Of a stretch of DNA of 59,359 nt, positions 15,946 to 46,127 are shown piece by piece. The notes beneath the pieces are model-generated. The model had not been told where the DNA came from, searched no databases, and was given only the letters and a program-made list of their open reading frames with translations. The stretch lies in the IMG/VR virus record IMGVR_UViG_3300020171_000031, positions 1 to 59,359 of that record; one strand, 5' to 3'. How positions within the stretch are numbered: the first letter of the stretch is position 1; every line of letters starts with the position of its first letter. Source of the DNA: a virus. Both the position numbers and the translations under genes were made by a program.

Positions 15946-15957
15946 AGGGAGATGTTG

Positions 15958-20292: not shown

Positions 20293-20578
20293 ATGGCGCG
20301 AGATAGCGCGGGTTCAGTGGAGCGCGGTGCGAGCCGACGCGGAGGCGCAACTCGCCTCCCTGCCTGAGATGGACTGGCGCCACCATGCGCAACAGGTGCG
20401 GCTGGACTACGCCCTGGCCCTGCTGGCCGAGCTGGCGCCGTGTCCACATGGTTGGAAGAACGTGGCGGATATAGGTGACGTAGTGCTCCAGGAGTGTCTT
20501 TTCTGCGGCGAAGCCCGCGCGGTCAACCCGCAGACGGGAGAGGTGGCAGCCGTCGAGAGGGAAGGAGGTGTTGCATAG
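20261..20578 (+). CDS. Small protein with zinc-type CxxC, 105 aa
   Basis: TTG 20261 lies 8 nt after GGGAGG. Its C-terminal half has PCPHGWKNVADIG ... CLFCGEARAVN, one CxxC plus a nearby Cys/His. Overlaps the radical SAM stop by 32 nt. No known family. Confidence 0.6.
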   Translation: MPPLRSWNLIRWREIARVQWSAVRADAEAQLASLPEMDWRHHAQQVRLDYALALLAELAPCPHGWKNVADIGDVVLQECLFCGEARAVNPQTGEVAAVEREGGVA

Positions 20579-21261: not shown

Positions 21262-21704
21262 CGCAGGTTAGAACCGAGGCTGATAGGGCGCGCGAGTACG
21301 CCGGCTTCAGCCCTGGGGTATGGGTCCGGCAGCCCGAGGCCATCAGGCAGGAGTGCATCCGGCGCTACCGGGCGCACCAGGCGGAGGTGGCCCGGAGGGC
21401 CGCGTTGACGCCAGACCAGAGGGCGCGGGAGGACGCGGGCGCCATGGAGCGAGTGGAGGTGTTGTATGGCAACGGAGCGAAAGGGAGGTGCATGGTGAGC
21501 ATCAAGCAGGGTGATACGGTGCGACTCAACAAGGGCACCCTACCCATCCAGCTATCTGATATCTTCGGGGAGCAGACCTTCACGCTCGTCGGCACGGTTC
21601 GGACGGTGGTGGACAACATAGTGGCCGTGGAGTGGCCGCGCCCCTTCGACCAGGCGACGTACCTGGAGGCCGAACACCTGACGCTGGCAGAGAAGTGCCG
21701 GTAA
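21258..21704 (+). CDS. Hypothetical protein with an internal start
   Basis: 149 codons from GTG 21258, overlapping the upstream stop by 4 nt. The N-terminal part is helical and Arg-rich; the C-terminal part (MVSIKQGDTVRLNKGTLPIQ) resembles an SH3-like/KOW barrel. An in-frame ATG at 21492 has AGGGAGGTGC in front, so a separate C-terminal product of about 70 residues is likely. Confidence 0.65.
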   Translation: MTQVRTEADRAREYAGFSPGVWVRQPEAIRQECIRRYRAHQAEVARRAALTPDQRAREDAGAMERVEVLYGNGAKGRCMVSIKQGDTVRLNKGTLPIQLSDIFGEQTFTLVGTVRTVVDNIVAVEWPRPFDQATYLEAEHLTLAEKCR

Positions 21705-22066
21705 TCTGTCAGGGACCCGACTGGAAGCCGCGTCGCTCTAGCAAGGAGCCGGGGACGTGTGGGGCGTGCGGCAAGCCGCTAGAGGGGCGCAACCTGTGGT
21801 TCTGCCCGTCTGCGCCCGGGACCTACTACGACGTGGGGAAGAGTTGCAGGGCCAACTACGCTGCCAACCACTTCTGGAGCGAATCAACCGCGCGAGGGGG
21901 ATTCATGCCAAGCATTGACGCGTCCGGCTGGCCGAGCTTCAAGGTGAAATTCGTCTGTAGGATTAAGGGCTGCAAAAATAAGAAGCGTAACGGACGTTGC
22001 GGCCTCTCCGCTCATCACATAGTCGATGGTCGGTGTCAGGAGTTCGCGGAGAAGGCCAAGCACTGA
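21695..22066 (+). CDS. HNH-like zinc protein, 123 aa
   Basis: GTG 21695 is the best-placed start. CGACGKPLEG and a later Cys plus NHFW match the zinc-binding half of phage HNH-type proteins. A second Cys/His cluster (CRIKGCKNKKRNGRCGL ... HHIVDGRCQ) follows. No clear catalytic HNH triad is visible, so an endonuclease is only one option. Confidence 0.62.
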   Translation: MPVICQGPDWKPRRSSKEPGTCGACGKPLEGRNLWFCPSAPGTYYDVGKSCRANYAANHFWSESTARGGFMPSIDASGWPSFKVKFVCRIKGCKNKKRNGRCGLSAHHIVDGRCQEFAEKAKH

Positions 22067-22068
22067 CC

Positions 22069-22096
22069 TTGCGTTATCTTGACCTTTAAGTATAAT
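22069..22096 (+). promoter_or_regulatory. Promoter upstream of the integrase operon
   Basis: TTGCGT (22069-22074), 16-nt spacer, TATAAT (22091-22096), followed by an A/T-rich stretch and CCAGGAGGG. The perfect -10 stands out in GC-rich DNA. Confidence 0.65.
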
Positions 22097-22114
22097 TAAA
22101 GCCAGGAGGGACTG

Positions 22115-22321
22115 ATGGCTCTTGATATACGGGCTGAACACATAGAGCGCCTAGCGAAAGCAGAGGCCGCCTATCAGTTAGCGCATAGCGCGTGGCGGGC
22201 GGCGGACTGGGACCTGGGGGAGACAGGGGAGACATTCGAGGCGATGAATAAGGCGTGCGAGGCCCGCGATGACGCTCAATTGAACTTGGACAAGCTAGAG
22301 AATCCAGAGTTATTTGCATGA
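22115..22321 (+). CDS. Small coiled-coil protein ahead of the integrase
   Basis: 68 residues, ATG 22115 preceded by CCAGGAGGGACTG. Almost entirely helical (MALDIRAEHIERLAKAEAAY), with its stop overlapping the integrase start by 4 nt. It could be a small regulator or excisionase-like factor, but the sequence lacks an evident winged helix. Confidence 0.7.
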   Translation: MALDIRAEHIERLAKAEAAYQLAHSAWRAADWDLGETGETFEAMNKACEARDDAQLNLDKLENPELFA

Positions 22322-23232
22322 AGCCCGACCTGGCCCGGTTTACCCAGTGGATGCGCTTCCCACCCGACGTGGACATGCTCGGGAGGACGGTTCGTGCCAA
22401 GGGCGAGGGGACGATCAAGCAGTACCTCTACACCGCCGGGCGCTATGCGGAGTTTCTCGCAGGCCGAGACATGAGCACGGAAACGACCCGCGAGTGGATA
22501 GACGGGCTTACTGGAAATAGCGCCAGGAGCAAGGCGCACCACATCGAGGCGCTGAAGGCCCTCTTCTTCGCCCATGACATGCGGCTCGGTCTGGGCAAGC
22601 CCAAGTTTACCGAGAGCCTGCCGCGGGTGCTGAGTGAGGACGAGCTGACGCGGCTCATCGCGGATGCCAGGGAGCGGACCCGCAGCACGGACATAGGCGC
22701 CTACGGGCTGGAGCGAGCCGCCTGGCGCTACGTCCTCGTGATGGTCTTCTTCGGCTCTGGGGTGCGGAAGGACGAGGGGCGCAAACTCCGGGTGGAGGAT
22801 GTGGTCCGAGATGGCAACGAGGGGACGATTCACGTGCGTGAGGGCAAGGGTGGCGATGACAGGTACATCGCGGTCGAGGGGGAAGTGGTTGATGCGGTAG
22901 ATGACTGGCTGGCGATCCGCCGCATCAAGTCCCCCTGGATATTCGCCGGCCGCGATGCCTCCAAGCCCGCGAGCCGTCATCCCATCGAGGTGGGCCTCAC
23001 CCAGGCGTGCCGGTACGTGGGTATCCGGGACTTCCACGTCCACATGGCGCGCCACTCGTATGCGACCGCCCTGGCGAGGGGCGACGCCGACGCCGAGGCC
23101 ATCCGGGTCCAGCTAGGCCACAAGTCCGTGACCACGACGCAGAAGTACCTGCACCTAACGCTGTCGGAGCGTCGGGGGCACCTCCCGTCGGTAGTGGGGA
23201 CCACGCGCCCGAAGCAGCTTAAGGAGAAGTAA
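22318..23232 (+). CDS. int: Tyrosine recombinase (integrase)
   Basis: 304 residues. N-terminal SAM-like core-binding domain (about 20-95), then the catalytic domain with the conserved Arg in GSGVRKDEGRKLR, Lys in REGKGGDDRYIA, His-x-x-Arg in HVHMARHSYAT, His in LGHKSVTTTQKY, and the nucleophile Tyr in that last motif. All key residues are present. It should catalyse integration and excision at an att site; no certain attP was found. Confidence 0.93.
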   Translation: MKPDLARFTQWMRFPPDVDMLGRTVRAKGEGTIKQYLYTAGRYAEFLAGRDMSTETTREWIDGLTGNSARSKAHHIEALKALFFAHDMRLGLGKPKFTESLPRVLSEDELTRLIADARERTRSTDIGAYGLERAAWRYVLVMVFFGSGVRKDEGRKLRVEDVVRDGNEGTIHVREGKGGDDRYIAVEGEVVDAVDDWLAIRRIKSPWIFAGRDASKPASRHPIEVGLTQACRYVGIRDFHVHMARHSYATALARGDADAEAIRVQLGHKSVTTTQKYLHLTLSERRGHLPSVVGTTRPKQLKEK

Positions 23233-23386
23233 ATGACCCACTTGGTGACCGTCTATTATCGCAACCGCTGTGGCGCTTGTGACGCTCTGTGCCACCTTGG
23301 GGAGCTTCAAGGGGCTTGGGGATGAGGACCTGATTACCGATGCCGCAGAGCGCAAAGCCCTCGGTTTGCCCAGGAAGGCGGACTAG
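23233..23386 (+). pseudogene. Small CxxC protein split by a G-run frame change
   Basis: ATG 23233 starts MTHLVTVYYRNRCGACDALC and stops at 23325. The next frame continues with EDLITDAAERKALGLPRKAD to TAG 23386, abutting the next gene. Removing one G from either G4 run at 23311-23314 or 23318-23321 joins them. The CGAC motif recalls glutaredoxin-type redox proteins, but the fold is too short to be sure. It is either a sequencing slip or a frame-broken gene. Confidence 0.5.
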
Positions 23387-23704
23387 ATGGAAAAGCTGCC
23401 GAGCGAACAACAGGCCCTTCGGGACGCTGGGTTCAGGCCAGTCGTGCGGGATGGAGTGCGGGGCTTGGAGCACGAGAAGCAGGCCGTGTTCATTCCTGCG
23501 CGCCAACCGGAAGCCCACGAGCAAGCTACTCTCGTCTGCACTCGCACCAGCTCACCGGCCTACGTTGCGGGCATGCAGGTGGTGGGGGTATGTGGGCGCT
23601 GCGGGGAGAGCGTCAAGGCGGCCCCGTCGGGCCAGGCGCAGTTGGCCCAGACCCCGTTGCTGCTGCTATGCCTGGAATGCTGGCTGAACGAGGTGAAAGT
23701 ATGA
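23387..23704 (+). CDS. Small zinc-type protein, 105 aa
   Basis: Starts MEKLPSEQQALRDAGFRPVV after GGAAGGCGGACTAG. C-terminal CGRCGES and CLECWLN form a possible zinc site. Its stop overlaps the next ATG. Function unknown. Confidence 0.68.
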   Translation: MEKLPSEQQALRDAGFRPVVRDGVRGLEHEKQAVFIPARQPEAHEQATLVCTRTSSPAYVAGMQVVGVCGRCGESVKAAPSGQAQLAQTPLLLLCLECWLNEVKV

Positions 23705-24114
23705 GCGGCGTCTTCGTGTCCGATGGCCACGGCCTCCTGACGGTGCGTTGCACCTCGCAGGCTCCTATTGGGGAGGAGAAGGACCAGAACGGCATCTGCG
23801 AGACGTGCCCATGGCACCATGACGAGAGGCGCGCGCGGATGCCTCTCTACTGTGACATGCCCGGCAATCAACCGATCCCTGAGAGGAGAGATGTGGAGGA
23901 GCCAACAGAACCTACCTGCCCAGCCGCCAAAGAGTATACTTTGACCATCGCACCGGCCTTTGAGAAGTGGATACAGCACTTGGCAGGGTGCTGGGCATGC
24001 AAGCAGTGGATGATGTCTAACCTCCCCGCATTTCGCGCGAGCCTGGACGTTCCCGCAGAGGTCATCGAACGCGCGCTGGATGAGCTTGCCGATTCCGAAG
24101 GCCAGAGCCCGTAG
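23701..24114 (+). CDS. Cysteine-rich hypothetical protein, 137 aa
   Basis: ATG 23701 overlaps the upstream stop. CETCPWHHDERR (about residue 33) and CWACKQWMM (about 97) could hold metal; the rest is alpha-helical with a basic stretch. Also seen: CTSQ and CDMPG. No family known to me. Confidence 0.68.
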   Translation: MSGVFVSDGHGLLTVRCTSQAPIGEEKDQNGICETCPWHHDERRARMPLYCDMPGNQPIPERRDVEEPTEPTCPAAKEYTLTIAPAFEKWIQHLAGCWACKQWMMSNLPAFRASLDVPAEVIERALDELADSEGQSP

Positions 24115-24117
24115 GCG

Positions 24118-25572
24118 ATGCCAGTTCGCGTCAACGCCAAGGGCCCGGCAGAGTTCGTCCGCGACCACCTGGGCGCGGGGACGGACTACGTGGGGTCATG
24201 CTTCAAGGCGTACAAGCTCTACCTGCGCCAGCATGGCTACCGCCGTAACATGCCGGGCCGTGAGAGCTTCTCCCGCCTCTTCTGGCAACTGCGGCTGCTG
24301 GGCGCCATCCAACTCGTCCGCGAAGAGCCCATCGGGACCAGCCCCTCCGCGCTGGCGTGGGCTGGCGGCGGCCTCCTGGGCGTGGATGGGCTGAACAAGC
24401 CCTCGCCCCGCCGCTTCTATCGAGTGGCCAACGCACAGCACGCGGCGTGGCGCTCGCCGGAGAAGGCCTATCGGGAGGCCCGTGGCCTGGGCCTCATCAT
24501 CAGGCGGAAGGAGCCGAAGCCCCCGAAGCCTCCAAAGAGAGAGAGGGTAATCAAGCCGTTGGAGGAGGGACTGCGAGAGCTGCGGGAGAAGCGCGATGCG
24601 GAGCGCAAGGCGGCTGCACCAGCTCCTATCGCGCCAGAGGAACCAGTACCCCCCCCGAAAGTGGTAGCACCCCCCAAGCGGAGGGGTAGGCCCCCCAAGG
24701 CCAAGCCCATCGAGGTCAAGGCTGAGGAACAGGTGCCGAAGGCGAAGCGCGGGAGGCCTGCTCTCCGTCCCGTTACGACTTACGCACCCGGTAGCCCCGA
24801 GGCCCTCAAGATGGAGGAGCAGCGCAAGGCGGCAGCCGCGGCCAAGGCTGTGCCGGCTGCACCTGGCAGGATGACGTTTGAGCCGATGAGTCCCCTTGCC
24901 GCCCAGCCTGGCCCCAAGAGCGTCTCGGTACTCATTAGCCATCTGACCGGGCTGCGCACCCTCCCGCCCAACACCCCGGGACTGGCAGACGAGGTGGCAA
25001 AGGTCGCCCTGGGAATGAGGGCCTGGGTGGACCGCCTGGACACCATATCGGAGTACCTGAAGAAAGAGGCTGACCCCGAGAAAGCTGACCAGCTGCCCAA
25101 GCTCCAGTACATGAGCGACATCTCCCTGAAAGCCGCGGACGCGCTCGAAGGACGCGACCTGGCTGCGGCGATTTACGCGCTGGACGAGATGTACCCGACG
25201 CCGGACATCCTGGAGCGGCAGGCGAACGAGTTCCTGCCGGAGATTCTCCTGTTCATGGCCACGCCCGACAGCGTGGTCCGAGACGTCCGCCGGCGCGGGG
25301 CCGAAGAAGAACCGCTTCGCCAGGTGGGTCGCGGCGAGGTGCTGCGTAAGCTGGAGGACCTTGAGGAGCGTCTGCGCTTGCACTATGACCGCGTGCTGGA
25401 CGCGATAGGCATGCGCAGCAATGCGCCCAACCTGCGCCGCCTGGAGAAGTTGGCGAAGGCGCTGGAAGACACGGAGGCGGCCCTGCCGGAGGTCGTGAAC
25501 GCGCTTCAGGCGGGCGACCCCGAGCGGTATCGCCGGGCCCTCCAGGCCCTAAGCCAATGTTGCAGGTGGTGA
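24118..25572 (+). CDS. AT-hook DNA-binding protein, 484 aa
   Basis: Residues 1-115 look like a winged-helix/replication-type domain. A Pro/Lys/Ala-rich linker then carries two AT-hooks, KRRGRPPKAKP (about 182) and KRGRPALR (about 202). The C-terminal 220 residues are helical with a leucine-rich stretch. AT-hooks bind minor-groove A/T tracts, so the protein may act in chromatin-like packaging, transcription or origin control (inference). No catalytic motif visible. Confidence 0.75.
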   Translation: MPVRVNAKGPAEFVRDHLGAGTDYVGSCFKAYKLYLRQHGYRRNMPGRESFSRLFWQLRLLGAIQLVREEPIGTSPSALAWAGGGLLGVDGLNKPSPRRFYRVANAQHAAWRSPEKAYREARGLGLIIRRKEPKPPKPPKRERVIKPLEEGLRELREKRDAERKAAAPAPIAPEEPVPPPKVVAPPKRRGRPPKAKPIEVKAEEQVPKAKRGRPALRPVTTYAPGSPEALKMEEQRKAAAAAKAVPAAPGRMTFEPMSPLAAQPGPKSVSVLISHLTGLRTLPPNTPGLADEVAKVALGMRAWVDRLDTISEYLKKEADPEKADQLPKLQYMSDISLKAADALEGRDLAAAIYALDEMYPTPDILERQANEFLPEILLFMATPDSVVRDVRRRGAEEEPLRQVGRGEVLRKLEDLEERLRLHYDRVLDAIGMRSNAPNLRRLEKLAKALEDTEAALPEVVNALQAGDPERYRRALQALSQCCRW

Positions 25573-25580
25573 GGAGTGAA

Positions 25581-25817
25581 ATGATAGAGTTAAGCGTGGA
25601 AGCTGTGGACCGATCATTCAAGCGGCTGGAGGCCCGCAACAAGCGGCTGGAGGCCTGCAACGCCTCCCTGCTGGCCGCGCTGGAGGAGGCTGTCTATCGC
25701 ATGTCGTTTGACTCTGATGCGCTCGGTAGGACGAGCACACGCGAATTGACTCAGGCCCGCGCCGCGATAGCCAAGGCCAAGGGCCAGGTGGTGGCGAGGA
25801 GAGCAGAAGATGGCTAG
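25581..25817 (+). CDS. Small coiled-coil protein, 78 aa
   Basis: ATG 25581 follows GGTGAGGAGTGAA. Contains RLEARNKRLEACNASLLAAL, a dimeric coiled-coil pattern. Overlaps the end of nothing upstream and the next gene by 8 nt. Unknown. Confidence 0.65.
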   Translation: MIELSVEAVDRSFKRLEARNKRLEACNASLLAALEEAVYRMSFDSDALGRTSTRELTQARAAIAKAKGQVVARRAEDG

Positions 25818-25971
25818 GAAGCGCAAGACCCTGGAGGAGGCGGCCCAAGAGCGCCTGGAGGCCGAGAGGGAGCTGGCCGAGCGGAATGAGCGGTGGGACC
25901 GGTTGATGGAGGACCAGCGGCGCGCAAAGGCGTTGAGAGACGGCCCTGCCCCCGACGCTAATCGCAACTAG
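25810..25971 (+). CDS. Small highly charged helical protein, 53 aa
   Basis: ATG 25810 is preceded by AGGAGAGCAGAAG. MARKRKTLEEAAQERLEAER and following residues form a single long charged helix. Function unknown. Confidence 0.6.
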   Translation: MARKRKTLEEAAQERLEAERELAERNERWDRLMEDQRRAKALRDGPAPDANRN

Positions 25972-25977
25972 CGCATC

Positions 25978-25986
25978 TGGTATAAT
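25978..25986 (+). promoter_or_regulatory. Extended -10 promoter
   Basis: TGGTATAAT at 25978-25986 is a TGn-TATAAT extended -10 with no matching -35. Would drive the 26003 gene. Confidence 0.5.
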
Positions 25987-26002
25987 GGCCCCAGGAGGCG
26001 CC

Positions 26003-26194
26003 GTGACGAAGCACATCGAAGTAGGCGGAACAACTTTCGTAGGTGGGGACCTTACGAGTCAAGAGAAAGCCCTCGTGCTTGGGCAAGTGGACAGCATCTT
26101 TGAAAGGGCATCGCCAGACCTAAAGGTAGCTATTGAAGCGAGCAAGCAGTCCATCCTTGACGCGGTTGCCGTAGTGAAACACCTCCATGCCTAG
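26003..26194 (+). CDS. Small hypothetical protein, 63 aa
   Basis: GTG 26003 lies 5 nt after CCAGGAGG. VTKHIEVGGTTFVGGDLTSQ begins a mostly helical protein. No known family. Overlaps the next gene by 8 nt. Confidence 0.62.
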   Translation: MTKHIEVGGTTFVGGDLTSQEKALVLGQVDSIFERASPDLKVAIEASKQSILDAVAVVKHLHA

Positions 26195-26486
26195 CATCAC
26201 GTGTCTGGCCCCACTCGTTCGGGACATCCTCCTGGAAGCCCTCGAGGAGAATGACGCGCCCTCCCGCGTGCTGACGAAGCTGCGCACCGTCCCCGATTGC
26301 CCTAGTGAGGAGCTGGTGGGCTTTGGCCGGGCCAAAGGGGTGAAAGGCGTCGCCAGGAAGCCGAACGCGCGGGCCCAGTGGATAGGGGCGTGCATCAAAA
26401 CGGAGTACGCGCGGCAGAAGCAGCCGGTGCCCCAGCTGATGCGCGAGTGCTCCGCCCGGTGGCGGCAGCAGAAAGCACCCTCATGA
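26187..26486 (+). CDS. Small basic hypothetical protein, 99 aa
   Basis: ATG 26187 overlaps the upstream stop. MPSITCLAPLVRDILLEALE with a basic end (CSARWRQQKAPS). The region FGRAKGVKGVARKPNARAQW suggests nucleic-acid contact. It precedes the holin-like gene. Unknown. Confidence 0.6.
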   Translation: MPSITCLAPLVRDILLEALEENDAPSRVLTKLRTVPDCPSEELVGFGRAKGVKGVARKPNARAQWIGACIKTEYARQKQPVPQLMRECSARWRQQKAPS

Positions 26487-26511
26487 AGGAAACTAGAGTG
26501 AGAGGAGTTCC

Positions 26512-26904
26512 ATGGACATCTCGATAGCTGTCAACAATCTAATCCAGAGCTACCCGTTCGTGGCCCTGACCGTTCTCCTCTTGGCCAACGTGGTCCTGGG
26601 TGCCCTGAACGCCCTCCGACCCGATCCGGACGGCGTGCGTAGGTTCACAGCCCTGGAGCTCACGGACATCTGCAAGAAGGTGGTGCCATTCATCGGCACC
26701 TACTTCGCCCTGGGCACCGGTGGGGAGGTATTGCAGAATGGCTATGGCGAGCTGTTGAAGGCCGTGGGAGCTGTTCTACCTGGTATCGCCTTCGCTCTAG
26801 GCACCCTGAAGAACGCTCTGGGTCTGGTAAACATCCAGGTTCCGTCTTGGCTTGTGTGGCTCTACCCACAGAAAGTCGCAGTGCGCGGCCCGAATATGGG
26901 GTAG
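26512..26904 (+). CDS. Holin-like membrane protein
   Basis: 130 residues, ATG 26512 after GAGAGGAGTTCC. Three hydrophobic segments (about 16-36, 58-76, 84-104), few charged residues between them, and total size fit phage holins of the phi29 type. No endolysin gene is adjacent. Permeabilisation of the host membrane is the likely role, by homology of form rather than a certain family match. Confidence 0.65.
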   Translation: MDISIAVNNLIQSYPFVALTVLLLANVVLGALNALRPDPDGVRRFTALELTDICKKVVPFIGTYFALGTGGEVLQNGYGELLKAVGAVLPGIAFALGTLKNALGLVNIQVPSWLVWLYPQKVAVRGPNMG

Positions 26905-26919
26905 GTAGCCGCACCCCTC

Positions 26920-26948
26920 TTGACAAGCCCCTGGCCTGCGAGTATGCT
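26920..26948 (+). promoter_or_regulatory. Consensus promoter for a short transcript
   Basis: TTGACA (26920-26925), 17-nt spacer, TATGCT (26943-26948). It sits directly before the terminator at 26992-27030, so its transcript should be about 75-80 nt. Confidence 0.75.
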
Positions 26949-26954
26949 TGACCT

Positions 26955-27030
26955 TGCCTGGTTAGTCTGCCTTGCCAGGCCACATCTCCTTGTACCGCTC
27001 CTCTTGCCACGGGGGGGCGGTACTGTTTTT
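26955..27030 (+). ncRNA. Candidate small regulatory RNA
   Basis: Between a strong promoter and an intrinsic terminator lies a 75-nt transcript with no ORF. It has a CCTGG/CCAGG stem-loop (26956-26980), then GCCACATCTCCTT at 26979-26991, which is the exact reverse complement of the ribosome-binding sites AAGGAGATGTGGC before the genes at 29437 and 30884; 11 of these bases also match before 31138. Trans-acting translational control is proposed. Confidence 0.55.
26992..27030 (+). terminator. Intrinsic terminator of the small RNA
   Basis: GTACCGC (26992-26998) pairs with GCGGTAC (27017-27023), followed by TGTTTTT. The inner loop adds extra G-C pairing. Confidence 0.75.
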
Positions 27031-27066
27031 AGTCACCAGCGACAGGCTTTATGAACAGTTAAAGGC

Positions 27067-27096
27067 TTGACAAAGCCCTCTCATCTAATGTAGAGT
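27067..27096 (+). promoter_or_regulatory. Promoter before the tRNA
   Basis: TTGACA (27067-27072), 18-nt spacer, TAGAGT (27091-27096), or TGTAGA at 16-nt spacing. It lies about 40 nt before the tRNA-type sequence. Confidence 0.6.
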
Positions 27097-27134
27097 GGGG
27101 CTGAGGCCAGACGTGGGGCTGAGGCCTGACGCGA

Positions 27135-27202
27135 TGCGGGGGCATGGTGCACTGGGGTCTCATAAGCCTCTGGGCTTGGTTCGATTCCAGGCCCCGCTAC
27201 CA
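27135..27202 (+). tRNA. tRNA with CAT anticodon (Met type), shortened D arm
   Basis: Acceptor TGCGGGG/CCCCGCT (six pairs) with A73 and an encoded CCA (27200-27202). Anticodon stem GGGGT/GCCTC with loop CTCATAA and T33, anticodon CAT. T arm CTTGG-TTCGATT-CCAGG is perfect. The D arm is only about 9 nt (GCA-TGG-TGC), far shorter than normal. Either a divergent phage tRNA or the intact 3' half of a host tRNA retained as an attachment site. Confidence 0.65.
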
Positions 27203-27258
27203 AGTGAGCTGCCGAACAGTCGCCGTCCAAGACGGCGTTCGGAGAAGGAGATGGAGAT

Positions 27259-27354
27259 ATGCGTAGGGCACTCTCATGGGTCTGGGAAGCGCTGGTACGT
27301 GGCGAACAGTTGAAAGGGCTTTCCTGGGGGCCTTGGTTCCTGGTGCAGCCATGA
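27259..27354 (+). CDS. Small ORF coupled to the next gene, 31 aa
   Basis: ATG 27259 is preceded by GAGAAGGAGATGGAGAT. MRRALSWVWEALVRGEQLKG is followed by LSWGPWFLVQP. Its TGA overlaps the next ATG. Possible leader peptide. Confidence 0.45.
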   Translation: MRRALSWVWEALVRGEQLKGLSWGPWFLVQP

Positions 27355-27692
27355 CGGACCCGAAGGATGCAGCCTGTCCCCGCTGTGGAGCGGAAGCAGG
27401 TCAACCCTGTAAGACCAAGACGGGGGCGGTGGTCAACTCGCGAGGGAACGTGCATCCGGCGCGGCTCCCTTTGCCGAGCACCATTCTCACCCTCCTGAAC
27501 ACCAAGCTGGTGGACGTGTTGGAGTTCCGGCCGGCCGCCCGGGCTGGCCGGAAGGACATCCCGTGGTTGCTCCGTCGGGCCGCAGACGTGCTGGAGAGCG
27601 ACGACCGGCCCATCGAGGGGATAGAGCTCACCCTGGAGGCGGCGCCGGACGGCACCTGGGTGCTCGTGGCCCAGGTGGTGCATCCGCAGTAG
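27351..27692 (+). CDS. Zinc-finger protein, 113 aa
   Basis: ATG 27351. Its N-terminus, CPRCGAEAGQPCKTKTG, is the CxxCgA...PC zinc motif seen in small actinobacterial and phage proteins; the residue after it is helical with a RPIEGIELTLEAAPDGTWVL beta sheet. Followed directly by G-rich repeats. Function unknown. Confidence 0.72.
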   Translation: MTDPKDAACPRCGAEAGQPCKTKTGAVVNSRGNVHPARLPLPSTILTLLNTKLVDVLEFRPAARAGRKDIPWLLRRAADVLESDDRPIEGIELTLEAAPDGTWVLVAQVVHPQ

Positions 27693-28020
27693 AGGGCGAA
27701 GGGGGAGGAAGGGCCAGGTCGGGGCAGGCTGGCGAACGGCTGGGAACGGAGAGGCTGGCGGTAGGAAAGGGGACGTGCGGCTTGGGGAGGTAGGCGGACG
27801 GAAAGGCGCGGCTCGGCTCTGGTAGGCGATAGGGTGGGGGCTAGAACAGGACAGGCTGGCGGAAGGTCAGGGAAGGGCGGAACCGGGTCGGCTAGGCTGG
27901 CGGTAGGAATGGGCCGGAATGGGGAGGCTGGCGGGAGGGCAGAACCGGACTGGGTTGGCCAGGCTGGCGGTAGGTTTGGGGAGGGCGGGCCAGGAGGCGA
28001 ACGGGCGAAGACAGGCACGG
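27693..28020. repeat. G-rich degenerate repeat array, locus 1
   Basis: A 328-base noncoding purine-rich stretch on the plus strand. AGGCTGGCGGTAGG-type units recur about six times (near 27727, 27750, 27850, 27893, 27924, 27959) with irregular spacing of 20-100 nt. The same unit recurs at 42342-42620. No gene was found inside. Confidence 0.6.
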
Positions 28021-28051
28021 ATGTGGTAAACTATCGGTGAAAGGAGGAGCC

Positions 28052-28477
28052 ATGCTGCTACGGTTACTCATGTTCCTGGTGTCCTTCCTGGTCCTGGTGG
28101 TGGCCCTGGTGGTCCAGCTGGTGGGGAGCATCGTCGCCACCTTCCTGACCGCCTCGCGGCCGGCTGTCCGCATTCTCACGATGCCCCTGCGGGTGCTCAA
28201 ACATCCACCCGCGATGTCCCTGGTGGCCTTCAGTTGGTTGATGAGAAGCGCCGCCCTGGTCCTGGTTACAACCACCAGGGCCACTTCCGGCGCATGCACA
28301 CGACTGGTTAACATCCTCGTTGGACGACCTGCTGCGAGCGCCAACCATATTGACGTGAAGGGTCTAGCCCGGCATCACCTGGCGCTGCGGGAGACCGGCC
28401 TACGTGGACGACAGCTGCGCGTTCTGCTCACACGGCTGTGGGACTTGCCCAGCGTGGGCGTGACCTCCGCGGGCTAA
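28052..28477 (+). CDS. Membrane protein with basic tail, 141 aa
   Basis: ATG 28052 follows GAAAGGAGGAGCC. Residues 4-30 form one or two hydrophobic helices (LLMFLVSFLVLVVALVVQLV). The rest is Arg/Leu/Ala-rich and ends near a tRNA-like element on the other strand. Family unknown. Confidence 0.65.
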   Translation: MLLRLLMFLVSFLVLVVALVVQLVGSIVATFLTASRPAVRILTMPLRVLKHPPAMSLVAFSWLMRSAALVLVTTTRATSGACTRLVNILVGRPAASANHIDVKGLARHHLALRETGLRGRQLRVLLTRLWDLPSVGVTSAG

Positions 28478-28479
28478 TC

Positions 28480-28546
28480 AGCCGCCTAAACCGGCTTACG
28501 CCCCTGACTTCCAAGGCCAGGGCGTCTGCCGTTCCGCCACAGCGTG
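28480..28546 (-). tRNA. Degenerate tRNA-like element (Leu/Ser-type D arm)
   Basis: On the minus strand TGGCGGAACGGCAGACGC is a canonical class II D arm, followed by an anticodon arm CTGGC-CTTGGAA-GTCAG (anticodon TGG if read literally) and a variable arm GGC-GTAA-GCC. No acceptable T arm or paired acceptor follows, so it is probably a broken tRNA or an att-site relic. Confidence 0.3.
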
Positions 28547-28837
28547 CATTCATCACAGGCTGGATAACCAGTACCGAGCAATGCACGGGACAGAGGGCGA
28601 CCCACCAGGGCCGCCCTCTTGTGTTGCCTCTAGGGAAACGTAGCTGCGCGGAGGAGGGCTCGCCACTGGAGACCACGCCGCACCCGCCGGTGGTGCGCAT
28701 CGCCTGATCACACCGCCACCACTCGCCAGATACAGGCCAGATATAACAGCCGCCCGAAGCGCCAGCCCCACGTAGCCCTATCTACTAGCATATAAATCAA
28801 CGTTGAGTATGCGAGTGACCTAACTCTAGTTAAAGCC
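28547..28837. other. Noncoding stretch without clear feature
   Basis: Apart from scattered short dyads I see nothing here. The region becomes A/T-richer near 28790-28810, just before the promoter. Confidence 0.4.
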
Positions 28838-28866
28838 TTGACATAGAGCCTGGACTAGGGTATATT
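28838..28866 (+). promoter_or_regulatory. Near-consensus sigma70 promoter of the repeat array operon
   Basis: TTGACA (28838-28843), 17-nt spacer, TATATT (28861-28866). The expected start near 28873 leaves a leader of about 180 nt before ATG 29054. Confidence 0.8.
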
Positions 28867-28872
28867 GTATCT

Positions 28873-29053
28873 GCGCAAGGCAAATCTAAGCGCCAGGTGA
28901 ATCGAATCCGAAACCGACCACAACCGAATAGGCAACGGTCTACCCTGAGGTACTGGCCGCAAGGCCAAAAGACTCACCGTAGGCCAGAAAGCCAAATGGC
29001 TTCACTCTCTCTAGGCGTGGCATAAGCAAGCCATAGCCTACAGGGGGTGAAAC
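28873..29053 (+). ncRNA. Structured 5' leader of the repeat-array operon
   Basis: About 180 nt without an ORF but dense in stems: TGGCC-GCAA-GGCCA with a GNRA loop (28954-28967) inside ACGGT/ACCGT (28935-28980); AAGCC-AAAT-GGCTT (28990-29003); and TAGGC...GCCTA enclosing TGGC/GCCA (29012-29040) just upstream of GGGGTG. The second stem overlaps the left arm of array unit A, so alternative folds compete. Candidate riboregulator. Confidence 0.5.
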
Positions 29054-29367
29054 ATGACAGAGTTTGCCGGGGTTAGAGTCCAGGGCACAAAGGGCTTAGG
29101 ACTAGCGCCGTTTTCCGGAATATTCGCCGACGAAGCAGCGGGCCCGACGAAGAGCTTGGTGCAAGCACGGTCCGAGCTCCAGTACATCGTGGCAGAGTTG
29201 CAGGGCATCCTGGACGGCGAGTTCGATGGCACAGACGCCGAGTGGGCGAAGTACGACGCTGAGGGCGGCGACGATGCCGTCTTGCAGGTGCTCGTACATC
29301 GCCTGGACGCCATCACCTGTCGTATTTAGGTGCGGGGCTTCCGCCCCGCCTAGAGAGAGTGAAGCCA
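28997..29367. repeat. Array unit A: ORF enclosed by a 21-bp inverted repeat
   Basis: 28997-29017 is the exact reverse complement of 29347-29367. The single ORF 29054-29329 lies between. After its stop a 7-bp hairpin with TTCC loop (29332-29349) overlaps the right arm by 3 nt, so the two structures exclude each other in part. Confidence 0.85.
29054..29329 (+). CDS. Hypothetical protein of array unit A, 91 aa
   Basis: ATG 29054 follows CAGGGGGTGAAAC. MTEFAGVRVQGTKGLGLAPF then a helical, acidic C-terminal half (QARSELQYIVAELQGILDGE). No known family. It is the first ORF after the strong promoter at 28838 and the structured leader. Confidence 0.75.
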   Translation: MTEFAGVRVQGTKGLGLAPFSGIFADEAAGPTKSLVQARSELQYIVAELQGILDGEFDGTDAEWAKYDAEGGDDAVLQVLVHRLDAITCRI

Positions 29368-29369
29368 AA

Positions 29370-30119
29370 GGTTCCCGCTACTGGGCGGCGCCCTCTCCCT
29401 CTTCAAGAATCTGAACGGAAGAGAAGGAGATGTGGCATGGCAGAGACAATCCAGGCGACCCCAGTAGTGACAACCCCCGTAGACCCCCTGGCCGACGAGG
29501 AGGCCAAGTTGCTGGCCAAGCTGGCCGCACTCCGGGCGGAGCGCGTGGTCAACACGGCCAGGGACATCTTGACGGCGGGCCTCAAGGCCAAGCTCCCGGA
29601 CGTGGTCAAGGCCGTCACGGACGAGGCCAAGTTCGACCTCCACAAGGCGGGAGTGGGCGTGTGGCTGTACTACGCCAAGGAGACGGGCAGCCCGATGATA
29701 TGCCTGCTCTCCGTCGGCGACGACGGCCTCCACCCCAAGGCCATGAAAGTCCACAAGGCGACCAACGGCAACGGGACGCCCAAGGCGGCCTCCAACGGCA
29801 ACGGCAACGGCAACGGCAACGGGAAGCCCGCCGGCGTCGAGTACGACGCCTTCCTGTACGACGGGCGGGGCCCGTTTCCCGTCGGGGCGGACTACAAGAC
29901 GGCGTACGACGCCGTCTTCGACGCCCTGGCCGTCCCGAAGGCGGAGCGCCCCAACCACAACAGGCCGGAGAGGTGGGCGGGCAAGTGGCAGGCCCGCGTC
30001 CTCATCGTGGAGCGCGGGAAGCGCCCCACAGACCAGCAGTTCGCGGAGGCCAAGGCGAAGGTGGCCTCCATCAAGTCCTAGAACCCAGGCGGGAGGGGCG
30101 CCGCCCAGTAGCGGGAACC
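29370..30119. repeat. Array unit B: ORF enclosed by a 24-bp inverted repeat
   Basis: 29370-29393 is the exact reverse complement of 30096-30119. With one bulged base it extends by five more pairs (29395-29399 with 30091-30095). Only the ORF 29437-30081 lies inside. Its left arm starts 2 nt after unit A ends. Confidence 0.88.
29437..30081 (+). CDS. Array unit B protein with Gly/Asn linker and C-terminal repeat domain
   Basis: 214 residues; SD AAGGAGATGTGGC is complementary to the candidate small RNA. N-terminal domain (about 12-108) is helical then beta. Residues 110-130 are NGNGNGNGNGNGK-type linker. The C-terminal domain (about 135-210) contains AYDAVFDALAVPKAERPNHN and WQARVLIVERG, a pattern also found at the ends of the proteins at 44282 and 45446. 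No known family; a shared small binding domain is inferred. Confidence 0.78.
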   Translation: MAETIQATPVVTTPVDPLADEEAKLLAKLAALRAERVVNTARDILTAGLKAKLPDVVKAVTDEAKFDLHKAGVGVWLYYAKETGSPMICLLSVGDDGLHPKAMKVHKATNGNGTPKAASNGNGNGNGNGKPAGVEYDAFLYDGRGPFPVGADYKTAYDAVFDALAVPKAERPNHNRPERWAGKWQARVLIVERGKRPTDQQFAEAKAKVASIKS

Positions 30120-30121
30120 GA

Positions 30122-30457
30122 CTCACTTCCTCCAGGCGCAGCAGAAGCGCAGGAGGAGGAGACATGAACCAGTGCATCCGGGGGAAGGTGGTGCCGTTCT
30201 GGAAGCAGCCCATCATCTACAAGGTGGTGGACTGGGCTGCCGACCACTACTACGGCTGGTTCCGGGATGTGGACCGTGCGGAGGCACGGGCCCGGGAAGT
30301 CCACGGCCTGGTGGTGTCCCAGACTGTTGGTGCCGGGACGCGCTTCCTGGCGAGCATCCGCCAAGCGGGTGAGTTCGCCAAGGCAGCGGCCAAGATGGAT
30401 GCCAACGGTGGGAGGTTGGAGTAGGTCGGGGCTTCTGCCCCGCCTGGAGGAAGTGAG
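30122..30457. repeat. Array unit C: ORF enclosed by a 17-bp plus 8-bp inverted repeat
   Basis: 30122-30138 matches the reverse complement of 30441-30457. After a 2x2 internal loop, 30141-30148 (GCAGAAGC) matches 30431-30438 (GCTTCTGC). The inner arm also forms its own TTCT-loop hairpin (30427-30442), so the two folds compete. Encloses ORF 30164-30424. Confidence 0.86.
30164..30424 (+). CDS. Hypothetical protein of array unit C, 86 aa
   Basis: ATG 30164 follows AGGAGGAGGAGAC. MNQCIRGKVVPFWKQPIIYK, then a WFRDVDRAEARAREVHGLVV helix. Basic at the start and acidic/helical at the end. No known family. Bracketed exactly by unit C repeats. Confidence 0.72.
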   Translation: MNQCIRGKVVPFWKQPIIYKVVDWAADHYYGWFRDVDRAEARAREVHGLVVSQTVGAGTRFLASIRQAGEFAKAAAKMDANGGRLE

Positions 30458-30458
30458 G

Positions 30459-30741
30459 CTCGTCTCACCCGACGGCGGGATAACGCCGAGGAGGTGTGAC
30501 GTGACCATCGAAGAGACGATGGCCAAGATGGACGCCGCGGGCGCGGAGGCCGGGAAGGAGCTGGCCGAGACGTTCGAGCCGGCGGAGATCCGCAAGGTGG
30601 GGGCCTGGCTGGACCGCCACTGGCGGAAGGCGGGGTACAAGCGGCTCGTCGGAGAGCTGCTGGTCCAGGGCGGGTTCCAGTGGAACCCGCGGCCTCCGAA
30701 GGGCTAGGTACGGGGGTTCTCCCCCCGTCGGGTGAGACGAG
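30459..30741. repeat. Array unit D: ORF enclosed by a 17-bp inverted repeat
   Basis: 30459-30475 is the exact reverse complement of 30725-30741. Starts 1 nt after unit C. Contains a CGGCG...CGCCG hairpin near 30474-30488 just before the SD and a TTCT-type hairpin at 30710-30728 after the stop. Encloses ORF 30501-30707. Confidence 0.85.
30501..30707 (+). CDS. Hypothetical protein of array unit D, 68 aa
   Basis: GTG 30501 follows CGAGGAGGTGTGAC. VTIEETMAKMDAAGAEAGKE then a basic helical region (LDRHWRKAGYKRLVGELLVQ). Size and shape suggest a helical DNA- or protein-binding module. Family unknown. Confidence 0.7.
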   Translation: MTIEETMAKMDAAGAEAGKELAETFEPAEIRKVGAWLDRHWRKAGYKRLVGELLVQGGFQWNPRPPKG

Positions 30742-30743
30742 AG

Positions 30744-30867
30744 TTCGCTCCCTCCGGGTGCGGCAGAAGCCGTAGCCCGATGTGCCTCCCGGGCTGGACG
30801 AGATGGTGCCAGGTACTCGGGGCGGCGCGGCGAATGGCCGGCTTCTGCCGCACCCGGAGTGAGCGAA
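30744..30867. repeat. Array unit E: 28-bp inverted repeat without a normal ORF
   Basis: 30744-30771 pairs with 30840-30867 at 27 of 28 positions. Only 68 nt are enclosed, with an inner AGCCCG/CGGGCT hairpin. It starts 2 nt after unit D. The right arm contains GGCTTCTGCC with a TTCT loop like units C and D. It may be a unit that has lost its gene. Confidence 0.82.
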
Positions 30868-30883
30868 GAAAGGAGATGTGGCA

Positions 30884-31061
30884 ATGGCGAGGTTCTGGCA
30901 GGCGCCAGAGCCGCCGGACGTGGCCGCCCAACGTGCGAAGCTGGGGCAGGCGTTGGGGCTGCACAGTACGGTATGCGGATGCTCACCCTGGGGTCACGGT
31001 ATACGCATGGCGCGACATCCGCCACGGGTTGTTCTTCGGGATGAAGACGATAGTGGAGTAG
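30884..31061 (+). pseudogene. Hypothetical gene with a G-run frame break
   Basis: ATG 30884 with SD AAGGAGATGTGGC starts MARFWQAPEPPDVAAQRAKL. About 25 codons later the sensible frame becomes YADAHPGVTVYAWRDIRHGL, ending at TAG 31061. Removing one G of the run 30955-30958 joins them into a protein of about 59 residues. It is not enclosed by an array repeat. Function unknown. Confidence 0.5.
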
Positions 31062-31115
31062 GCGCGGTTGCGCCTCCCCCAGGAGGGCCGAGACGGCTCC
31101 GCCATCTTGGGGGAG
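31061..31115 (+). terminator. Tandem hairpins after the array region
   Basis: GGCGC-GGTT-GCGCC (31061-31074) overlaps the stop codon. CTCCCCCA near 31074 pairs with TGGGGGAG ending at 31115 (about 12-15 pairs with one mismatch). No U run, so likely mRNA end-processing or a weak terminator. Confidence 0.5.
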
Positions 31116-31137
31116 ATGCAAACGAAAGGAGATGTGC

Positions 31138-32178
31138 ATGACAGCAGGCAAACCCTGTCCCGTGGCAGGCTGCGGGTACGCGGCGCTGTCGCAGGGCGAC
31201 CTGGACGGGCACACCGCCTACGCTCACCGTGAGCGGAAGCCGACCCCCTCCGGCAACCCTGTGGCCGCGCCTCCAGCTCCGCAGCGGGCCGACAAGCCGG
31301 AGTGGCATCCGGCGCTGTACGTCCCGCAACGCGACCCGCACTTTTGGGTTGCGGACGAAACCACCCGCTTGTTCTTCGTCCTGCAAATGCGGACGGAGGC
31401 GGGCCATCAGGAGAACGTGCTTCTCCGTGGCCCCAAGGGGACGGGCAAGACGACGCTGCCGCGGATATACGCGGCGGCGTGCAAGCGCCCGTTCTTCTCC
31501 ATGGACTGCGGAGCCGTCTCGGAGCTCTCCGACTGGTGGGGTGACAAGGAGCTGGAGGGCGGGCGCACCTTCACTGTGAGAGCAGCCCTGGTGGACGCCC
31601 TGGAGACAGAGAACTGTGTCGTCCTGCTGGACGAGGCCAACAGGACGCATCCCGAGAACCTGAACGCCCTATTCGGCCTCCTGGACCACAGGCGAGCCGC
31701 GTGGGTCCCGCTGCTCCGGCGGGAGGTACGCGTGGCGCGGGGCGTGACGTTCTTCACGACGCTCAACGAGGGGACGGAGTACGCGGGCACCAACCCCGTG
31801 GACTCGGCCCTGCGGGACAGGTTCTCCTACACCATCGTGACCACCTGGCCGCCGGAGCTTGAGGAGGCGGCCATCCTGGTGGGCCGAACGGGGGTGGACC
31901 AGGATATGGCGGCGAAGTTGGTACGGTTCGCCAACACCGTCCGCCGCACCCCCGCCATCCACTACGCCCTGTCCACCAGGGCCCTCTTGGCCACGTGCCA
32001 GTGTCTCCAGGAGGGCATGGCGTTGCAGGAGGCGGCGCTGTTCACTGTCGTCAACGCGGCGCCCGAGGATGTGGACCGAAAACTCCTTCTGCAAGCGCTT
32101 CAGATGCACGTCGGGAAGATTGACGAGGCGTGGGTAGTCTCCGTGACGGGCGAAGCCGTCCAGGGGGCGACGCCATGA
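31138..32178 (+). CDS. MoxR-type AAA+ ATPase with N-terminal C2H2 finger
   Basis: 346 residues; ATG 31138 is preferred to 31132, which lies in the SD. Residues 6-28 form a C2H2 finger (CPVAGCGYAAL ... HTAYAH). The AAA+ core has Walker A RGPKGTGKTTLP, Walker B CVVLLDEANR and sensor TTLNEGTEYAGT. MoxR-type ATPases remodel proteins together with VWA partners, and the next gene (overlap 4 nt) is such a partner. The small-RNA complement covers its SD. Confidence 0.9.
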   Translation: MTAGKPCPVAGCGYAALSQGDLDGHTAYAHRERKPTPSGNPVAAPPAPQRADKPEWHPALYVPQRDPHFWVADETTRLFFVLQMRTEAGHQENVLLRGPKGTGKTTLPRIYAAACKRPFFSMDCGAVSELSDWWGDKELEGGRTFTVRAALVDALETENCVVLLDEANRTHPENLNALFGLLDHRRAAWVPLLRREVRVARGVTFFTTLNEGTEYAGTNPVDSALRDRFSYTIVTTWPPELEEAAILVGRTGVDQDMAAKLVRFANTVRRTPAIHYALSTRALLATCQCLQEGMALQEAALFTVVNAAPEDVDRKLLLQALQMHVGKIDEAWVVSVTGEAVQGATP

Positions 32179-34487
32179 CGCAGCGAAACCTCTCGGACTT
32201 CTGGCGCTTTGACAAGTCGGACGACCTGGTGATGGAGATGGTGAGCGTTCTCCAGGGGGCCGACAACCTCATCGGGCTGATGTCGGGCGACATGCAGCGG
32301 GAGAAGCTCATGGAGAAGCGGATGCGCGTCCGCTGGTGCCCAGGGGATGTGAGCGCGGTCTCTCCGGAGCGGGAGGTCGTGTTCCTCAACTACCGCCACC
32401 TGCGGGGCGTGCCGACGCCCTTCCCGGGCGAGGCGGTGGACAAGGTGATAGGCGACGCGGCCCATGAGGGGGGCCACGTCCTGTGGACGGGCAACACGCC
32501 CGACTGGGCGGCGGAGTTGCACCGCCGCTACATGATGCGGGGGAAGAACGGAGGCCGTGGAAAGTTCGCCATCTGGTACGGGCGCAACCGTCAGGGGATG
32601 GTGGCGTGGTTCAAGGACTGCGCCAACATCCTGGAGGACGCCTACGTGGACAAGAAGGTGAGCAACCGATGGCCCGTCCTGGGCGCCTATATCCAGCAGG
32701 CGAAGGCGAATAACCCCGCGGACCTTCGGGTAGATTGGGATGCCATCGCGGCGAAACCGAAGCCGTCCATGCTGGAGATGCGGAATCTCTGGTGTCACCT
32801 GGCGCTGTACGGCGGCGATGTCCCGGCGCAACTCTCCAGGAGTGTGCGGGATGGGCTCGACTTCCTGCTCGACTCCACGCTGCGCGTTCTCAAGCTGGAA
32901 AGTGTCGGGCTTCGCCTGGACGTGGCGTTCGAGTGCCTAGTGTACATGGTCAAGGCGTACACGGAGGACGAGCGGGCGCTTCCGAAGAAGCCGCCCGCGC
33001 CCCAGGCTCCAGCAGCTGAGTTGGCCGAAGGCGAGGGGGAGGGAGGGCAAGGCGACCCCACTCCTGGTGAGACGGGCCTGCCCGACCTGGAGAAGAAGCC
33101 CAAGGCCACCCCAAAGGGTGAGAAGGAGGACGAGGGTGAAAAGCAAGACGGCGAGGACGCCGATGGAGATTCGGACGCTGACGCAGCGGACGGTGCAGGC
33201 GATAAGGAGGCTGGACAGGCTCCTGCCACCGATGCCGAGCCCGACGAAGAGGACGAGAACGCCGACCCGGAAGCCGGCCAGGATGGCGAGGGCAAAGGCG
33301 GAGACGCAGACGGCGCTGGCGAAAATGGAGAGGATAGTGCGGAGGCTGGCAGCGGCTCCGCCGACGCCGACGGAGAGGGCAAGGCTGGAAAGAAAGACAC
33401 GGGCGGCGAAGCGGGAGAAGGCGGCGGCAAGGGCGGCGAGGAGGGTGACGGGGAAGATGGGGGTGAGGAAGCCGACGTCACGCCGTCCTTAAAGCTGGCG
33501 CCCAAGCAGCCCGACGAGGACAAGGACGAGTACACTCCGGGCGGCACCAACGCGGCCAGCGATACGCTGGAGCACCAGCGGGATATGCAGTCCCAGGTCA
33601 TCACGGTGGACGACCCGCACCTCCTGGAACTGGTGGAGAAGGCGATGGCCGAGCAGCTGGAACTGCTCACCAAGGAGGTCGCCGACATCCTGGCGCAGAA
33701 GCCGGAGGAGGTGGCTACCAGAGCGCGCCGCGCCTCCTATGACGCCCAGGCTCTGGCGGAGATTCGCCTGCGCATCGGACAGCAGGCGGCGAATCTCCGC
33801 AGGGTGTTCGAGCAGGAGATGCGGGCTAACTCGCGCTTCCTGCGCGGGCAGCTCAGAGGGCGGCTGGACACCCGCCGCCTGGCCAGGGTGGGAGCGGGCG
33901 ACTACAACGTGCGGATGCGGCGTGAGGTTATCGGGAAGCCCGACCTGGCCCTGGGCCTCCTGATGGATGTGAGTGGGTCCATGATGGGCTACATGCCCGT
34001 AGTGTGGGAGACGGCGGGCCTGTTCGCGGAGGCGCTGGTGGGGCGGCCTGGGATTAACTTCCTGGGTTGCACCTACACCACCGAGTATTCCAATGGGCAA
34101 AACGGGACTTGCCTGACGCGCATCGCCGACAGGGGTCTGGGGCGGCTGTGCGTCGGGGATGTGGTGCAGGGTGGTGGCACTCCCTCCGGGCAGGCTATCG
34201 CCGCCATGCGGGTGCTGGTGGGGCGGATGCCCGAGCGGGAGAAGGTGATAATCCACTTCACGGATGGCCAGCCCGACCGGGAGGAGCCAGTCCGGCGGGC
34301 GGTGGAGGCGTGTCGCCAGGCGGGCATTGGGGTGGTGTGCATCACGGTGCTGGATGGGGGCTGGCGCGGCGCCACCTGGCAGCAGCAGCACCTGGACTTG
34401 CAGTACGGGCGCGGAAACTGGGGACTAATCGGCAAGGTGGAGGACCTGCCCAAGGCGGTGGCGGCCCTCCTCAAGAGTCTAGCGTAG
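32175..34487 (+). CDS. VWA-domain CobT-like partner of the MoxR ATPase
   Basis: 770 residues from ATG 32175 (MTQRNLSDFWRFDKSDDLVM). N-terminal helical/zincin-like part with AAHEGGHVLWTG, an HExxH site near residue 98. Residues 280-440 are Asp/Glu/Gly-rich and disordered. A coiled region (about 465-560) then leads to a VWA domain with the MIDAS motif LMDVSGSMMGY (about 595) and a later Thr/Asp pair (GTPSGQ, FTDGQ). Family: CobT/CbbO-like cofactors. Possible combined peptidase-remodelling function is inferred. Confidence 0.88.
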   Translation: MTQRNLSDFWRFDKSDDLVMEMVSVLQGADNLIGLMSGDMQREKLMEKRMRVRWCPGDVSAVSPEREVVFLNYRHLRGVPTPFPGEAVDKVIGDAAHEGGHVLWTGNTPDWAAELHRRYMMRGKNGGRGKFAIWYGRNRQGMVAWFKDCANILEDAYVDKKVSNRWPVLGAYIQQAKANNPADLRVDWDAIAAKPKPSMLEMRNLWCHLALYGGDVPAQLSRSVRDGLDFLLDSTLRVLKLESVGLRLDVAFECLVYMVKAYTEDERALPKKPPAPQAPAAELAEGEGEGGQGDPTPGETGLPDLEKKPKATPKGEKEDEGEKQDGEDADGDSDADAADGAGDKEAGQAPATDAEPDEEDENADPEAGQDGEGKGGDADGAGENGEDSAEAGSGSADADGEGKAGKKDTGGEAGEGGGKGGEEGDGEDGGEEADVTPSLKLAPKQPDEDKDEYTPGGTNAASDTLEHQRDMQSQVITVDDPHLLELVEKAMAEQLELLTKEVADILAQKPEEVATRARRASYDAQALAEIRLRIGQQAANLRRVFEQEMRANSRFLRGQLRGRLDTRRLARVGAGDYNVRMRREVIGKPDLALGLLMDVSGSMMGYMPVVWETAGLFAEALVGRPGINFLGCTYTTEYSNGQNGTCLTRIADRGLGRLCVGDVVQGGGTPSGQAIAAMRVLVGRMPEREKVIIHFTDGQPDREEPVRRAVEACRQAGIGVVCITVLDGGWRGATWQQQHLDLQYGRGNWGLIGKVEDLPKAVAALLKSLA

Positions 34488-39327: not shown

Positions 39328-39425
39328 GCAGCGGAGATCAGTTTCTGAAGGAGGTGAGGCTGGACATTAGCTTGCGGGTCCCCATGCAATGGATGAAGAA
39401 TGCCTGAAAGAAGGAGATGGGAGAG

Positions 39426-39845: not shown

Positions 39846-39873
39846 TGCCGATGTTCGTCCAGTGGGGCACTTG

Positions 39874-46117: not shown

Positions 46118-46127
46118 GGAGGCGCCA

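Follow-up and report, generated by a model that had tools for sequence, protein, structure and literature searches.

A predicted phage-encoded antisense RNA complementary to a start motif shared by neighbouring genes

Results

The window, that is, the whole stretch of DNA analysed here, is the 59,359-base virus record IMGVR_UViG_3300020171_000031. Family and homology searches identified genes for a DnaB-type helicase, an integrase, Ku, an ATP-dependent ligase, a MoxR/CbbQ-type ATPase and a VWA protein. The locus under study lies on the plus strand. It opens with a sigma-70-type promoter (26920-26948; TTGACA-17-TATGCT, 10 of 12 consensus matches), followed by a 5' hairpin predicted by RNA folding (26956-26980), an 11-nt unpaired linker CACAUCUCCUU that is complementary to AAGGAGAUGUG and is the predicted seed (26981-26991), and an intrinsic terminator (26992-27029) with a 13-bp GC-rich stem (26992-27023) and the U run TGTTTTT. 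We infer from the sequence that the RNA 5' end is near 26955/26956, just after the promoter; the predicted transcript is ~75 nt long and has the order 5' hairpin, 11-nt linker, strong terminator. No ORF of at least 40 aa starts within the RNA on its strand, and the sole ORF of that size running over it on the same strand is a 44-codon TTG frame whose first codon lies at the -35 hexamer and precedes the predicted start of the RNA. The small RNA has its own promoter and terminator without an ORF, as judged from the sequence and for ORFs of at least 40 aa, and this agrees with what the sequence-only reading had claimed for the locus.

The small RNA folds with -36.3 kcal/mol (z = -3.96), and none of 200 shuffled sequences was equally stable. 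The minimum free energy structure has a frequency of 0.50 and the centroid is identical to it. In the predicted fold the linker bases are 92-100% unpaired, and both flanking helices start exactly at the linker ends.

Promoter-like sites with at least 9 of 12 matches numbered 3 in 25800-31800 compared with 0.8 ± 0.9 in shuffles, and 8 in 12500-32400 compared with 2.2 ± 1.4; they were not in excess in 39400-59359 (3 versus 3.2). The whole window holds seven sites with at least 10 of 12 matches, all with a perfect TTGACA and six of them intergenic by our own gene calls. Terminator-like sites as a class did not exceed shuffles in 12500-32400 (8 versus 10.1 ± 3.3), and the same was found for 25800-31800 and 39400-59359. 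The terminator of the small RNA has the longest stem among the 8 sites in 12500-32400, and also among the 15 sites listed for 12500-32400 and 39400-59359 together. An upstream transcription unit may end at this terminator (26992-27029) too.

A search of 12 sequences (~237 kb) for promoters with a terminator no more than ~130 nt behind them yielded three units including the small RNA; the other two, one in the window and one in the distant viral contig L013, have no match longer than 8 nt to SD-bearing start regions. The second unit of the window is on the minus strand (48173-48276), with a promoter at 48276-48248 and a 12-bp terminator hairpin at 48208-48180, within ~40 nt. It precedes a leftward operon, has no trans match to a start region over more than 8 nt and shows a 12-nt cis overlap with the start region of the next gene (47946-48167); a leader, an attenuator or another small RNA are candidates for its nature. 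The L013 unit, located around 2629 on the minus strand, is ~60 nt long and contains two CACCCC stretches. Next to the small RNA locus, at 27067-27199, a TTGACA-type promoter (27067-27096) is followed by a tRNA-like sequence in which a CAT anticodon loop can be seen by eye; this sequence scored 19.1 bits with the Rfam tRNA model, below the gathering score of 29, and ARAGORN reported no tRNA. No Rfam family reached its gathering score in the window, and the weaker matches do not overlap 26955-27029.

Further along the plus strand, at 28997-30867, five long inverted repeats stand in series 1-2 nt apart, with arms of 24-31 nt that are 90-100% complementary. Four of the repeats each enclose one gene (29054-29329, 29437-30081, 30164-30424 and 30501-30707), and the fifth (30744-30772/30839-30867) has 66 nt inside and no gene. 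The arms of stems 1, 3 and 5, and less clearly those of stem 4, appear related by eye, each matching its own partner. Folding of 28880-31140 formed 24/31, 24/24, 25/27, 17/29 and 28/29 of the pairs of the five stems. The candidate targets of the small RNA are three genes of this region. The gene at 29437-30081, inside the second array stem, encodes 214 aa, for which neither PHROG nor Pfam gave a match at E 0.001. The gene at 30884-31061, whose start motif lies just past the fifth stem, has ~59 codons; the gene finder did not call it, and we entered it manually. Its coding potential switches frame near 30970, with the first 29 codons in one frame and the last 29 in another, for which mutation, assembly error or a programmed shift are candidate explanations. 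The gene at 31138-32178 encodes a MoxR/CbbQ-type AAA ATPase of 346 aa and is followed by a VWA-domain gene.

The stretch GCCACATCTCCTT of the small RNA (26979-26991) is the exact complement of AAGGAGATGTGGC, an SD-containing 13-nt motif present in identical form on the plus strand before 29437 (29424-29436) and before 30884 (30870-30882), and AAGGAGATGTG before the ATPase gene (31126-31136, plus strand) provides an 11-nt match. These exact matches are those that had been proposed earlier, 13 nt before two genes and 11 nt before 31138. AAGGAGATGTG is common to the three starts and is the exact complement of the 11-nt linker. For 29437 the complementarity is longer, with 18 of 19 nt matching across the start codon (26973-26991 with 29424-29442).

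We compared these matches with a set of 101 start regions, made up of 100 genes called by a codon-usage and SD model plus 30884. AAGGAG is present in 12 of the 101, AAGGAGATG in 4, AAGGAGATGTG in 3 and the 13-mer in 2, and an exact match reaching 5-7 nt past AAGGAG occurs only in the starts of 29437, 30884 and 31138. Equal complementarity to most SDs, which would have deprived the RNA of specificity, was looked for in this set and not found. Randomisation was carried out with CTCCTT fixed and the 7 preceding bases random, in 20,000 trials; the real start regions were kept, so that their mutual likeness is allowed for. A 13-nt match to at least one gene arose in 0.04% of trials and to at least two genes in 0.01%, while at least three genes with at least 11 nt were obtained in 0.06% and at least four with at least 9 nt in 1.0%. 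With up to two mismatches the motif has 7 sites in the window, including that of the RNA itself, compared with 1.6 ± 1.3 in shuffles, where 7 was reached in 1 of 100, and the exact 13-mer was absent from the plus strand in 100 dinucleotide shuffles of the window. Among the best 12 of the 60 CTCCTT sites on both strands, the small RNA site is the only one that is not just the opposite strand of a start region. Another 11-nt match, that of gene 35758, involves the paired terminator stem and not the linker. The small RNA carries a seed, accessible in the predicted fold, that is complementary to the target starts beyond chance, and the original observation is confirmed.

The 13-mer was also considered as the ribosome-binding site of a minus-strand gene and rejected, as inspection by eye found no ATG, GTG or TTG 4-12 nt after it on that strand.

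The specificity of the predicted pairing was ranked in two ways over the 101 starts. When a 15-nt piece of the RNA was set against local windows of mRNA, with the cost of opening the mRNA included, 30884 (-21.0 kcal/mol), 29437 (-16.6) and 31138 (-16.4) took ranks 1, 2 and 3 (mean -4.4, sd 4.8), followed by 42642 in fourth place (-15.5) and then 2366-2560 (-14.6); the genes named by the sequence-only reading are the first three in this interaction prediction. Plain duplex energy with a 20-nt piece again placed the first two of these genes in the lead (-29.2 and -27.8 kcal/mol), and 31138 was only 17th (-19.2). The neighbouring gene 30501 is fifth by plain duplex (-23.3 kcal/mol) and 13th with accessibility (-8.5). 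In the folded operon the SDs of the three targets are partly paired, with a mean unpaired probability of 0.35-0.47. A weak further candidate is AAGGAGATG (9 nt) before gene 39426 (39411-39419, plus strand), at accessibility rank 7 of 101. On this sequence evidence 29437 and 30884 are firm predicted targets and 31138 is a probable one, the third being less firm because 42642 nearly ties with it by accessibility and because of its rank by plain duplex. The proposal that one RNA targets three genes thus stands firmly for two of them, and for the third it is only likely; as an interpretation it is partly supported, being the best reading and well backed by the sequence for two genes. Sparing of the neighbouring genes is likely but not certain, because 30501 ranks so high by plain duplex.

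A repeated motif at ribosome-binding sites is known from Cluster K mycobacteriophages, whose 13-bp Start-Associated Sequence (SAS), GGGATAGGAGCCC, is described in 11-19 copies and as conserved beyond the part that pairs with 16S rRNA (PMC3203893, 2011); its role was still called unknown in 2024 (PMC11373665). The window may resemble these phages, as they are described there, in that an SD-containing motif of 13 nt recurs ahead of more than one gene (PMC3203893). It differs in that the motif is AAGGAGATGTGGC and not the SAS consensus, the position being analogous and the sequence different, and in that two exact copies and one of 11 nt in 101 starts are far below the 11-19 copies of SAS (PMC3203893).

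We analysed 19 Cluster K phages, namely Adephagia, Anaya, TM4 and 16 picked for diversity out of 177 records with a related gap, 60 of which were listed. PMC11373665 places the apparent start of Adephagia late transcription in the gap between genes 92 and 93. An inverted SAS lies in this gap (30683-30695 of L020, gap 30448-30879), and another in the matching gap of Anaya (31871-31883 of L021). In both phages a strong hairpin on the rightward strand has the ten nucleotides CCTCCTATCC as its apical loop, and the inverted SAS, with at most one mismatch, occurs once per right arm; shuffles contained one in 1 of 100 and 0 of 100 cases. An anti-SAS with at most two mismatches stands in a hairpin loop within a mostly unannotated gap in 7 of the 19 phages; the records of Angelica and Validus, two of these seven, have an annotated hypothetical gene that runs over the hairpin. 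Ekdilam, Amgine, Unicorn and Shandong1 carry, at the corresponding position, a variant rich in pyrimidines, and 8 of the 19, TM4 among them, have no anti-SAS. TM4 has no inverted SAS at up to two mismatches, though SAS copies are present. Across the seven phages CCTCCTATCCC is invariant and the stem is variable; 95.4% of cells are paired, and in two pairs both sides have changed. The covariation is weak, since shuffles reach it in 178 of 500 cases on pairs and in 34 of 500 on score.

The idea of an anti-motif was tried as well on the Cluster EF phage AnnaSerena, whose motif is given as GGGAAAGGACCCC (PMC7302621), and failed there: in 50.0 of its 56.7 kb there are 10 motif copies on one strand and none on the opposite strand at up to two mismatches. 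The SAS parallel is suggestive and not general, because an anti-SAS is found in 7 of 19 Cluster K phages and none in AnnaSerena. The portion of the literature searched, which had the ZoeJ study outside its scope, yielded no mention of an RNA against SAS.

Discussion

We consider it probable, from the arrangement of the sequence, that the window encodes a trans-acting antisense RNA of the phage that blocks translation initiation of three neighbouring genes. Transcription would begin just after the promoter at 26920 and end at the terminator, whose stem ends at 27023, and the 11-nt seed would be held single-stranded between two stable hairpins. The seed, whose complementarity was located base by base, could then pair with AAGGAGAUGUG(GC), which holds the SD of 29437, of 30884 and probably of 31138. 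Such pairing would keep the 30S subunit off and repress the three genes jointly, the predicted effect being a common repression of the 214-aa protein, the ~59-codon gene and the ATPase of the MoxR/VWA pair. The shared start motif of 11-13 nt would act as an address for those operon genes that belong to the small RNA, and neighbours with AGGAGG-type sites (30164 and 30501) would be mostly spared or less affected. The outcome would be discoordinate control within one operon. If this is true, a single 75-nt RNA together with a short start-codon address co-ordinates several genes of one phage operon at the level of translation.

Antisense RNAs of similar size are known from phages. A 2025 review describes c4 of phages P1 and P7 as a 77-nt RNA acting in trans near the ribosome-binding site of ant mRNA, lists sar of P22 (68/69 nt) against ant as interfering with translation initiation, and lists OOP RNA of lambda (77 nt) as acting in cis against cII (PMC12197685). 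By these descriptions the predicted RNA resembles c4 as a phage-encoded trans RNA of ~75 nt that is antisense to a ribosome-binding region and has a structure displaying the pairing bases, whereas c4 has one target, ant, and the single 11-nt linker of the window RNA is predicted to serve three genes through their shared start motif (PMC12197685). It resembles sar and OOP, as described in the same review, in being a short phage RNA, here predicted from sequence, that would regulate phage genes through pairing (PMC12197685); unlike them, its gene is 2.4-4.1 kb from the targets and the complementarity covers only 11-19 nt. The Rhizobiales sRNAs SmelA075 and SmelA099 are reported to expose anti-SD loops, CCUCCUCCC (PMC3927594). 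The window RNA would share with them, in that account, an unpaired stretch that is rich in pyrimidines and directed at Shine-Dalgarno sequences (PMC3927594). Their loops are generic, whereas the seed in the window goes 5-7 nt past AAGGAG and therefore selects particular genes. The difference from these RNAs is that several genes are predicted to be served through a start motif which they have in common and which exceeds the SD in length.

Other readings of the locus have to be weighed against this one. The foremost of them, which we think unlikely, is that the terminator merely serves the upstream unit, whose last gene is 26512-26904, the promoter being a chance occurrence and the complementarity an SD-like accident. 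The stem does start 88 nt past the last base of that gene, and terminator-like sites are not enriched over shuffles. However, the complementarity reaches far past the SD core and the seed is exactly the unpaired part, and promoter sites, mostly intergenic, are enriched in 25800-31800 and 12500-32400 (not in 39400-59359). We give somewhat less credence to the 13-bp sequence being a DNA element, an operator or protein-binding site in a stoperator-like set of three copies with one inverted. Three exact copies in one region, one of them reversed, would suit such an element, but a DNA site needs neither the SD spacing from start codons that the direct copies show nor the placement of the inverted copy as an unpaired linker between hairpins. 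We regard it as the most telling point that the linker of the modelled fold ends where the shared 11-mer ends: nothing would make a chance repeat or a DNA operator stop at the point where the helices begin.

That the RNA broadly mimics the anti-SD tail of 16S rRNA and competes for many SDs, or acts as a sponge, is in our view very improbable. CUCCUU does lie within the linker and plain duplex energies fall below -19 kcal/mol for other starts too, yet the three named genes head the 101 starts when mRNA opening is included (mean -4.4 kcal/mol), and only they have an exact match 5-7 nt beyond AAGGAG. Last in order, we find little likelihood in a regulated leader, in which the promoter would serve the downstream tRNA-like sequence and protein genes behind a conditional terminator, or attenuator. 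Further genes indeed follow on the same strand, but the next unit has a promoter-like site of its own at 27067-27096, and a single fold dominates the RNA (MFE frequency 0.50, centroid identical).

The window and the Cluster K phages together suggest a recurring RNA circuit of motif and anti-motif in phages. It is a tentative and rather doubtful extension of the antisense reading that phages have repeatedly evolved a two-part switch, in which a start motif marks genes and the unpaired anti-motif of a non-coding RNA silences the set, with the window and the K1 mycobacteriophages as independent instances. In K1 phages the inverted SAS would stand in a hairpin loop within the gap where late transcription of Adephagia is reported to start, such that late transcription would silence the SAS-marked genes. 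If true, SAS gain a concrete and testable role as seed-matched targets of a phage RNA.

Relatives and other features of the window

Protein scans of viral contigs with six queries from the window found no relative of the locus, and neither did a plasmid search; phage DNA and protein searches gave no match for the locus or for the 214-aa target, and genome contigs none for the integrase. A 16-nt pattern of the RNA in 11 viral contigs was rejected as chance, since folds inspected by eye showed the hairpin-linker-terminator arrangement in none of the 11. DnaB has relatives at five distant viral loci, with 31-36% identity. These five loci showed no RNA of the small-RNA kind; one of them is L013, whose promoter-terminator unit has start-region matches of at most 8 nt. 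Relatives of Ku were found at 18 genome loci; identity is 32-39%, apart from one short fragment with 48%, and the loci, which by name belong mostly to Actinomycetota, do not fix the host.

The Ku and ATP-dependent DNA ligase genes of the window lie near each other (34964-37207), possibly as a phage-borne end-joining pair. Gene 42642-43388 has a marginal match to the RAMP superfamily, with 22.5 bits at a cut-off of 22.1. A 35-nt inverted repeat at 15892-15926 and 16335-16369 is 83% complementary, rich in GTAACG/CGTTAC and iteron-like by eye.
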